Shown here piece after piece: positions 12,735 through 59,372 of a stretch of DNA of 64,000 nt. Position 1 is the stretch's first letter, and each line of letters opens with the position of its first letter. The position numbers and the translations under genes were made by a program. The notes under the pieces are model-generated. The model searched no databases and was not told where the DNA came from. It saw only the letters and a program-made list of their open reading frames with translations. Source of the stretch: Rhizobiales bacterium NRL2 (GTDB lineage: Bacteria > Pseudomonadota > Alphaproteobacteria > Minwuiales > Minwuiaceae); NCBI GenBank assembly GCA_001664005.1, contig CP016093.1, forward strand, positions 1,557,001 through 1,621,000, in the 5' to 3' direction.

Positions 12735-13739
12735 TTGATCCCCGCCGTCTTCGGCATTGCCGGAACCGAACTGAACCCGGAGGAGGCGGCCTTTCTGGCC
12801 GATCACCGGCCCCTGGGCGTGATCCTGTTCCGCCGCAACGTGGACAATCCCGATCAGGTCCGGCGGCTGACCGATGCGGTGCGCGACGCGCTGGACGCTG
12901 AGGGTCCCTGCCTATGGGTGGATCAGGAGGGCGGACGCGTCCAGCGCCTGTCGCCGCCGCACTGGGAGGCGCTGCCTTCGGCCCGCCGGATCGGACAGGC
13001 GTTCGACCGCGACCCGCAGGACGGCGAGTACGCGGCCTGGCTGCTGGGCCGGATCATCGCCGACCAGACGGCGGCCGCGGGCTTCGACATCGTCTGCGCG
13101 CCGGTGCTCGACCTCGCGCAGACGGACGGACACGACGTCATCGGCGACCGTGCCTTTCACGCGGACCCGGAGGTAGTTGCATTTCTGGGCAGAGCCATGG
13201 CCGACGGCCTGGCGGCGGGCGGGATCCTGGCCGTCAGCAAGCACTGGCCGGGGCATGGCCGGGCCTGGGTGGACAGCCATCTGGAACTGCCCGTGGTCGA
13301 AACCGAGCCGGTATTGCTTGAAGCCACGGATTTCGCTGCCTTCCGCCGGGCGGCCGACTGTGCGCCGATCGCCATGACCGCCCATATCCGCTATCCGGCG
13401 ATCGACCCGGACCTGCCGGCCACCCTGTCGACGCAGATCGTCGAAGGGATCATCCGCGGCTGGTGCGGTTTCGACGGCTTTCTCGTCTCCGACGATATCG
13501 ACATGAAGGCGCTGGACGGCGTGCCGGGCGACCTGGCGCGTGCGGCCCTGTCGGCCGGGTGCGATGCGGTGCTGCAATGCTCCGGCGACTTCGCCGTGAT
13601 GACCGCCGTGGCTGAGGCGATCGGCGGGTTCTCGCCGGCCGCCGTGGAGCGCTGGAGCCGGCTCTCGGCCGCGCGGCAGGCACCTGAGTCCGTGGACCGT
13701 GCGCAATTGCTGGCCGAACTGGGTGAAGCCCTCGTCTGA
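12735..13739 (+). CDS. nagZ: Beta-N-acetylhexosaminidase NagZ (GH3)
   Basis: This 334-residue cytoplasmic GH3 enzyme removes GlcNAc from anhydromuropeptides in cell-wall recycling. The signature KHWPGHGRAWVDSHLELPVV contains the NagZ-specific Asp-His dyad loop, and FLVSDDIDMKAL carries the nucleophile Asp. The start is TTG at 12735, 4 bases after the SPOR stop. No ATG lies early enough to keep the conserved IPAVFGIAG beginning. Confidence 0.94.
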   Translation: MIPAVFGIAGTELNPEEAAFLADHRPLGVILFRRNVDNPDQVRRLTDAVRDALDAEGPCLWVDQEGGRVQRLSPPHWEALPSARRIGQAFDRDPQDGEYAAWLLGRIIADQTAAAGFDIVCAPVLDLAQTDGHDVIGDRAFHADPEVVAFLGRAMADGLAAGGILAVSKHWPGHGRAWVDSHLELPVVETEPVLLEATDFAAFRRAADCAPIAMTAHIRYPAIDPDLPATLSTQIVEGIIRGWCGFDGFLVSDDIDMKALDGVPGDLARAALSAGCDAVLQCSGDFAVMTAVAEAIGGFSPAAVERWSRLSAARQAPESVDRAQLLAELGEALV

Positions 13740-13784
13740 AGCTGCGATAATGACGTTCCGGCGAATCACACGGACCCGACCGCG

Positions 13785-14570
13785 ATGAACCAGAGCGCAG
13801 CCGATTTCGAGGAGGACGCCCCGCGCGAGCCCGCCGGTCAGCGGCTCGTCGTCGATCTGGGCGCCTATGAGGGGCCGCTCGACCTGCTGCTCGATCTGGC
13901 CCGCGACCAGAAGGTCGATCTTGCCCGGATCTCCATGCTCGCGCTGGCCGAGCAGTATCTCGACTATGTCGAGAAGGTCCGCGAACTGCGCCTGGAACTC
14001 GCGGCGGACTACCTCGTGATGGCGGCCTGGCTGGCCTATCTGAAATCGCGTCTGCTGATCCCGGATCCGGAGCCCGAGGATGAGCCCTCCGCGCAGGAGA
14101 TGGCGGCCCGGCTCAACTGGCAGCTCCGCCGCCTTCAGGCCATGCGGCAGGTCGCGGCCAGACTGCTGGAGCGTCCGCGCGAGGGCCAGGATTTCCATCG
14201 CCGCGGCGCGCCGGAGGGCATCCGGGTGCAGCGCAGTTCGGCATGGACCTGCGACTACTACGATCTGCTGAAAGCCTATTCGGTCCACCTGGAGGCCAGG
14301 GGCGACAGCGAGCCGCTGCGGATCCGCCGCGACAAGGTGATCAGCGTGGAGATGGCCCTGGAACGGATGCGCAAACTGCTTGGCGCGCTGCCCGAATGGT
14401 CCAGCCTGCAGGCCTTTCTGCCGCCGGCCATCGCCCATCCTTTCACCCGCCGGTCGGCGACTGCGTCGACCCTGCTGGCGGCGCTGGAACTGGCCAAGCA
14501 GGGCGACATCGAGATCCGGCAGGGCCGCAGTTTCGGACCCATCTACATCCGGCGCCGGGACAAGGCATGA
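13785..14570 (+). CDS. scpA: Segregation and condensation protein A
   Basis: This 261-residue kleisin of the SMC-ScpAB condensin complex has the family hallmark YEGPLDLLLDLARDQKVDLARI near residue 27 and a C-terminal winged-helix SMC-binding region (residues about 185-260). It works with ScpB and SMC to compact and segregate chromosomes. It overlaps scpB by four bases (ATGA), so the two are translationally coupled. Confidence 0.95.
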   Translation: MNQSAADFEEDAPREPAGQRLVVDLGAYEGPLDLLLDLARDQKVDLARISMLALAEQYLDYVEKVRELRLELAADYLVMAAWLAYLKSRLLIPDPEPEDEPSAQEMAARLNWQLRRLQAMRQVAARLLERPREGQDFHRRGAPEGIRVQRSSAWTCDYYDLLKAYSVHLEARGDSEPLRIRRDKVISVEMALERMRKLLGALPEWSSLQAFLPPAIAHPFTRRSATASTLLAALELAKQGDIEIRQGRSFGPIYIRRRDKA

Positions 14571-58552: not shown

Positions 58553-58676
58553 GGTGGTCTCCCCATCGGACCTGATCGGGACAAGCTTGCCATGCGGCGC
58601 CGCCGCTGTCAGCGTCCCGGTCGGTTGCCCGGACAGGTTATACTGGCGGCCTTGCCAGTCTTGAAGGAGCGGCGCG

Positions 58677-59264
58677 ATGGACATTCTCGACCTCTGGCCA
58701 AGACTTCGGCGCGACTGGCGCGGTCCGGTCGCCGCACTTGCCGGTGCGGTGCTGGTGCTGGTCTTCGCCGCCCCGGGACTGGGTTTCCTGCTGGCCGTGT
58801 TGCTGGCCGGCGCGCTCGCCATGGGGCGCGATCCGGTGCGCGCTGCGCCAGACAGTCCAGCGGCGGTGCTCGCGCCCGTGGACGGGCGGGTGACGGCGGT
58901 GGAGCGCGCGGCCCCGCCGGCGTCCATGGGATTTGGCGAGGATGCCCGGCTTTGCGTGACCGTGGCGAGGGGCCCGCTGGATTCGGCGGCGCTGCGCCAG
59001 CCGGCGGACGGGTCAGTCCGCCGCGCGGGCGAGTTCGGCTGCATCATCTCCAACGAGGGGCAGGCGGATGTCGGGTTGCTGCTGGCGCCGGCGCAGTGGT
59101 CCATGCTGACGCGCCTGCGCACCGGTCGCGTGGGCGCCGCCGGCGACAGCCTGGGCGCGATGGGCCCGTTGGGTCAGGTGAAGGTCTATCTGGAGCCCGG
59201 CGTCGAAATCGCGGTCCGCCGCGGCCAGACCGTCATCGCGGGCGAGACGGCGCTGACGCGGTAG
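58677..59264 (+). CDS. Phosphatidylserine-decarboxylase-like protein lacking the active site
   Basis: This 195-residue protein starts with two membrane segments (about residues 18-50), like the small PSD-II type enzymes. It shares [11 protein letters not shown] in the middle and [27 protein letters not shown] at the end. The residues needed for activity are missing. The autocleavage Gly-Ser site (usually FGSR-x-D-VYL) reads LGQVKVYL here, so no pyruvoyl group can form, and the usual catalytic His in FDVHVNR is replaced by LDSAALRQ. It is probably a non-enzymatic paralogue. Confidence 0.7.
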
Positions 59265-59280
59265 GCGGTGAAGCGGCACC

Positions 59281-59358
59281 GGATTCCTCGGGCTCGACCC
59301 GAGGATCCGTGAACCGGAAACGCCACGCCCACAGGCCCTCGGATCAGGTCCGAGGGCA
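59281..59358. repeat. Paired palindromic element, family 2, copy B
   Basis: Hairpins CCTCGGG-N5-CCCGAGG (59286-59304) and GCCCTCGGA-N5-TCCGAGGGC (59335-59357) lie between convergent genes. The second is of the same type as GCCCTTGG...CCAAGGGC at 51183-51205. The pair layout repeats that of the other elements. Confidence 0.7.
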
Positions 59359-59372
59359 TCAGCCGACCGTCC

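Follow-up and report, generated by a model that had tools for sequence, protein, structure and literature searches.

The window analysed here is a stretch of 64,000 nucleotides from the single contig (CP016093.1; 4.70 Mb, 99.99% complete) of Rhizobiales bacterium NRL2, which belongs to the genus Minwuia and is called G000 below. The gene under study, psdL, starts with ATG, ends with TAG and encodes a protein of 195 amino acids that resembles phosphatidylserine decarboxylase (PSD). Its neighbours are the genes for the alpha and beta subunits of nitrile hydratase, in divergent orientation, on one side and a convergent carboxyl transferase gene on the other. The third-position GC of psdL (0.87) is similar to that of the neighbour genes. 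The features of the gene are collected in Table 1.

Table 1. Features of psdL and its 5′ flank (positions in the window).
Feature	Positions	Strand	Evidence
psdL, encoding a PSD-like protein of 195 aa that lacks the pyruvoyl site	58677..59264	+	PF02666, 28.7 bits; intact G004 copy, 92% identical
AAGGAG, likely ribosome-binding site, 7 bases 5′ of ATG	58664..58669	+	Sequence; G004 has GAGGGAG there
Predicted N-terminal membrane hairpin, residues 12-49, two helices	58710..58823	+	Model, hydropathy, alignment
PVDG, residues 67-70 (canonical PADG; Asp kept)	58875..58886	+	Both PSD alignments (32; 56 canonical)
Ala104, column of the invariant His	58986..58988	+	56/56 canonical rows have His; psdL and G004 have Ala
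Rebuilt active-site region, residues 130-169	59064..59183	+	0 non-synonymous, 9 synonymous codon differences, G000 vs G004
Leu165-Gly166, columns of the Gly-Ser self-cleavage pair	59169..59174	+	Both PSD alignments (32; 56 canonical)
GQTVIAGET, residues 183-191, retained C-terminal segment	59223..59249	+	Both PSD alignments (32; 56 canonical)

A palindromic intergenic repeat is located at 59287-59357 of the window, and short similar matches to it were found at three further places in G004, another Minwuia genome. In G004, about 570 extra bases lie between psdL and the carboxyl transferase gene (L064, about 13594-14268), which are absent in G000 (window 59265-59372). By eye, these bases resemble a Doc-type toxin and an AbrB-like antitoxin.

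The relationship of psdL to PSDs was examined with profiles and alignments. PF02666 matches psdL in two stretches with an E-value of 1.2e-06 and 28.7 bits (cut-off 22), and eleven PSD-type models of NCBIfam match it with E-values from 1.5e-06 to 1.1e-17. No other type of family was found in Pfam or NCBIfam. It should be mentioned that none of the eleven models came near its cut-off (183-377): the best score was 64.4 bits against a cut-off of 252, whereas the canonical PSD of another Minwuia genome, G005, reached 379.5 bits against 315. We aligned psdL first with 32 canonical PSDs and then with 56. Across the 56 canonical rows, 65 columns are conserved at 90% or more, and psdL keeps 24 of them. 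The retained parts comprise the hydrophobic N-terminus, RDP, PxDG, PP, RxP and GQTxIAGET, and their order, beginning with the hairpin, is the PSD order. Judged by its sequence, psdL is a divergent relative of PSD with a kinship beyond chance, as the first-pass annotation had proposed. The membrane start named there was likewise found: helices are predicted at residues 12-31 and 33-49, the mean hydropathy across residues 25-43 is 2.74, and in the 56-row alignment this region is aligned to the hydrophobic N-terminus of canonical PSDs. We take the Asp of PVDG to correspond to Asp90 of E. coli PSD; residues of short-type PSDs were matched to E. coli numbering in the same manner, by motif. The number of Asp90 itself is that given in the excerpts of PMC7952604.

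Catalytic parts lost from psdL

In both alignments, FGSR of canonical PSDs is replaced by PLGQ at residues 164-167 of psdL (IRFGSR to MGPLGQ). The Gly-Ser pair and the catalytic His are present in 56 of 56 canonical rows. The pair is replaced by Leu165-Gly166 in psdL, and the His by Ala104 in both psdL and its G004 counterpart. Both replacements had been seen in the first-pass annotation, and its list of losses proved incomplete: NER, which is also found in all 56 canonical rows, falls in a gap in psdL and the G004 copy, and GLVARR is deleted from psdL in the same alignment. We also looked for the alternative Ser or Cys cleavage site that the annotation had considered. The old cleavage pair and its adjoining residues (MGPLGQVK) contain no Ser, Thr or Cys; the nearest such residue upstream is Ser158. 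According to excerpts of PMC7952604, the S254A and G253P variants of E. coli PSD are not cleaved, and mutants at H144 do not produce PE. Because the residues needed for it are lost, maturation of psdL by the known PSD route is, on sequence grounds, ruled out. Homology, loss of the catalytic residues and retention of the gene together suggest that psdL is a pseudoenzyme of the PSD superfamily, most likely non-catalytic.

The lipid pathway in Minwuia and the origin of psdL

In most bacteria, PSD is the exclusive source of PE, as stated in the excerpts of PMC7952604. Profile searches with PF02666 at E 1 and E 10 found no second gene in G000; the same search gave matches in eight of 14 control genomes. 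The description of psdL as a paralogue thus has to be given up, since no normal psd was found elsewhere in the genome. The sole PF01066 gene of G000 is PgsA (TIGR00560, 137.5 bits against a cut-off of 109.1) and not PssA, and no PssA-type gene was found among this gene and the one PLD-type protein scanned. The latter, L224, scored 64.6 against 290 for cardiolipin synthase; with 23.4 against 314 for E. coli-type PssA, it was rejected as an alternative PE route. PF13091 occurs at two places in G000. The NCBIfam scoring covers L224, and the other place is a 799-aa frame, at which a PLD-type PE synthase may sit. An OlsB-like protein of G000 scored 311 against a cut-off of 320, and PF13444 was above its cut-off in all nine genomes of the family searched. 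Because PgsA is the sole PF01066 gene and the OlsB-like protein and PF13444 are present, the G000 membrane is expected, from gene content, to hold PG, cardiolipin and ornithine lipid, with no PS or PE made by the standard route. The literature passages on the genus that were consulted yielded no polar lipid data for Minwuia.

The six other Minwuia genomes fall into three groups. Three (G001-G003) yielded neither psd nor pssA: they show no PF02666 match and one PF01066 gene each. One, G004, has an intact 195-aa copy of psdL that is 92% identical. The remaining two, G005 and G006, have a canonical psd (230 aa) adjoining a PF01066 gene. As to the conservation of psdL, which the first-pass annotation had left to be checked, the intact G004 copy speaks for it, and psdL was not found in five of the six other genomes. 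The canonical pairs of G005 and G006 are of Rhodobacteraceae type and lie at L065:656-2094 (G005:C34) and L066:5246-6684 (G006:C121). The best NCBIfam match of the gene beside the G005 psd is the pssA model TIGR00473 (95.3 against a cut-off of 107). Because the G005 PSD shares 84% identity with its counterpart in an uncultured Rhodobacteraceae genome and 79-82% with those of Tateyamaria and Sulfitobacter, and because the G005 and G006 PSDs sit among Rhodobacteraceae rows in three of three trees, the psd-pssA pair was probably acquired, an apparent re-acquisition of the PE pathway. Both genomes are multi-contig drafts, and the pair may come from a binning error. A repeat of about 195 bp is located just 5′ of the acquired psd (L065:249-442), with 15 copies listed in the complete genome G003; it is perhaps a mobile element tied to the acquisition. 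In G004, a second PF01066 gene has no pssA match in NCBIfam and is possibly contamination (contamination of G004, 4%). G004, unlike G000, has a CDP-alcohol transferase gene of unclear type, L063 (G004:C24:14592-15044), beside a frame that resembles CdsA by eye. The sister genera G007 and G008 carry a canonical psd beside a PF01066 gene. A further PF02666 match, weak at 12.5 bits, lies in G008:C63 and was judged to be chance; the opposite frame reads by eye as a permease.

Among 60 relatives, high identity to psdL was found in G004 only, and the lowest E-values outside the genus were those of G007 (1.2e-16, 39% identity) and G008 (6.1e-16, 35%). In a sample of the class (385 genomes, E 1e-10 or better, at most eight scored candidates from each), G007 again gave the best non-self match (E 1.2e-16). 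Identities in this sample reached 43%, over parts of the sequence; G004 was not among these matches. A contig-level scan with psdL as query found no relative. Comparison of the window with PSD loci by tblastx gave no clear synteny around a psd match, with mostly low-scoring pieces among the matches listed. In a tree of 59 rows, the psdL branch measures 9.4 changes per column, and other long branches lie nearby. We left out 20 rows for two trees of 39 rows. The quick one placed psdL with G007 and G008 (SH-aLRT 97), and a constrained grouping with G005 and G006 scored 11.3 log units higher (p-AU 0.675). The careful one placed psdL beside G009 and G209 with weak support (58/65); here the constraint to G007 and G008 scored 0.5 higher (p 0.531), that to G005 and G006 scored 4.0 lower (p 0.453), and neither was rejected. 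Vertical descent of psdL is favoured by the search ranking and the taxonomy only, and the trees do not settle the origin.

Selection on psdL and its structure model

Between G000 and G004, psdL shows 26 synonymous and 15 non-synonymous codon differences, with no stop and no indel over 588 bp. The dN value is 0.041 and the dS value is 0.192, which gives a dN/dS of 0.213. This ratio is 1.7 to 8.5 times those of eleven neighbour genes (0.025-0.123). For comparison, neutral evolution was simulated with nine mutation settings of 3000 runs each. The mean number of non-synonymous codons was 28.0-31.1 and the minimum was 16; in none of the 27,000 runs was it as low as the observed 15. No stop arose in 44-66% of the runs with 45 substitutions, and therefore the open frame alone is weak evidence. 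Because of the low dN/dS, the absence of indels and the outcome of the simulations, we conclude that psdL has been under purifying selection, weaker than that on its neighbours. Since only two species carry psdL, the selection was measured on one pair and concerns recent divergence.

The first-pass annotation held that the gene is not simply decaying, and these values bear it out. We nevertheless weighed whether psdL is a slowly dying relic, a psd that became jobless after the loss of pssA and drifts, its frame open only because the split of the two species is recent. The fast evolution of psdL relative to the eleven neighbours, its very long branch in the trees, the lack of a PF02666 match in three other Minwuia genomes and the stop-free share of the neutral runs are what such a relic would give. 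However, neutral drift did not reproduce the observed count, and the dN/dS of 0.21 without indels, the neighbour-like third-position GC and the ribosome-binding site argue against it. Moreover, psdL seems to have diverged too far from canonical PSD to have been decaying freely all along. We therefore regard a relic as rather unlikely.

The region that replaces the active site, residues 130-169, has no non-synonymous and nine synonymous differences, as a new active site might. It is very improbable, however, that psdL retains an enzymatic activity through a different chemistry or undergoes self-cleavage at some other position. Ser, Thr and Cys are missing from the old pair and the residues next to it, and His, NER and GLVARR are gone. 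In addition, the region was picked post hoc, and by our own arithmetic the chance that 40 named codons stay free of 15 evenly spread changes is about 3%.

The model of psdL has a mean pLDDT of 63; the hairpin and the outer strands are fair and residues 111-164 are poor. When a canonical Minwuia PSD was the target with the same 33 sequences, the mean pLDDT was 87.8. The best structural rows for the psdL model are those of EIIA-Glc (Z 8.0, rmsd 3.2, 116 residues aligned), a commonly reached Z level, and rows of RNA polymerase and cytochrome f lie within 1 Z of them. The control model of the canonical PSD matched E. coli PSD with Z 10.8-12.3 and EIIA-Glc with Z 12.0-13.5. Its fold family is thus that of E. 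coli PSD (6L06, 7CNW-7CNZ) and PsiD. In contrast, no PSD row is among the chains listed for the psdL model; the alignment took in only those chains that Foldseek had preselected, and hence this is uninformative. Foldseek itself gave no match for the psdL model at E 0.001 or better. Sequence searches of the PDB with psdL and the A1 profile gave no match either; they are too insensitive, since PSD structures exist. The psdL model may represent a shrunken PSD core. Because the canonical control also matches EIIA-Glc, alongside E. coli PSD, this likeness goes with the PSD fold; an origin of psdL from another beta-domain family, for example one of EIIA-Glc-like or LytM-like fold, is barely credible in spite of the EIIA-Glc rows, given also that Pfam and NCBIfam name PSD-type families only and that the order of parts is that of PSD, and a separate EIIA-Glc-like origin was rejected.

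A possible role of psdL in a PssA-less lineage

We give a probability of roughly 60% to the reading that psdL is a former PSD which a lineage without PssA has retained as a membrane-anchored protein with no catalytic function. It would probably go back to the family's own ancestral psd, passed on vertically, and the loss of PssA would have removed the known source of phosphatidylserine. The N-terminal hairpin may hold psdL on the inner membrane, where the remaining beta core would lack the site for the serine head group. The rebuilt region may bind one of the lipids still expected in the membrane, namely PG, cardiolipin or ornithine lipid, or else another protein, and psdL may act as a scaffold or a lipid-sensing factor. 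Most likely, psdL is a membrane-anchored PSD remnant that is re-used as a putative lipid- or protein-binding factor. As reported in PMC10172927, maturation of the malarial PSD is controlled by binding of anionic phospholipids, a precedent for a PSD proenzyme that binds lipid.

The nearest known system is the short alphaproteobacterial PSD (PF02666; NCBIfam NF003677 and NF003679), with which psdL shares the hairpin, RDPxR, P[AV]DG, PP, RxP and GQTxIAGET and their order. In contrast to this enzyme (230 aa in G005 and G006), psdL is shorter, lacks Gly-Ser, His, NER and GLVARR, scores far below the NCBIfam cut-offs and has no pssA found in its genome. The AdoMetDC prozyme of Trypanosoma, as described in the excerpt of PMC5201418, is likewise a catalytically dead relative of a pyruvoyl enzyme that has been kept. 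However, the prozyme activates a live paralogue, and the search of the psdL genome revealed no live PSD. Literature searches covering titles and abstract openings did not turn up a PSD pseudoenzyme from bacteria. If selection retains a PSD that has neither its known maturation nor its usual substrate, this would show that the protein does something other than catalysis. Within the small Minwuia clade, the loss of the PE pathway can be compared with its conversion and its apparent re-acquisition. There is also a warning for annotation: Pfam alone would label psdL phosphatidylserine decarboxylase, and this label would suggest PE synthesis where there is probably none by the PSD route.

A tentative generalization, which we consider possible though doubtful, is that PssA loss is a repeatable route in Alphaproteobacteria. 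An orphan PSD would lose its pyruvoyl Ser and be retained, non-catalytic and in the membrane, for a new role in cells whose membranes are PE-free. This would have happened at least twice, with Minwuia G000 and G004 far along and the G054 lineage early, and other Minwuia would have deleted the pathway or taken up a Rhodobacteraceae psd-pssA pair. The second case comes from a motif screen of 144 ORFs with PSD matches, which were chosen by similarity and count overlapping loci repeatedly, so that they are not a census. Thirty of them failed one or both of two crude motif patterns. Twenty-six of these 30 have GS and missed only the His pattern, which was too narrow; the other four are the G004 psdL (three overlapping loci) and one G054 protein. 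Neither another PF02666 gene nor PssA was found in G054, and the only PF01066 gene found there is PgsA; because this genome is 75% complete, the missing genes may be gaps. G178, another genome of the family of G054 (69% complete), gave no match. The G054 protein (L228:4975-5751, G054:C179) has FGGE in place of FGSR. Like psdL, it has lost the cleavage Ser, is the only PF02666 gene found in its genome and occurs where no PssA was found. Unlike psdL, it belongs to a separate lineage, keeps His and NER and is less degraded, with 41 of the 65 conserved positions against 24.
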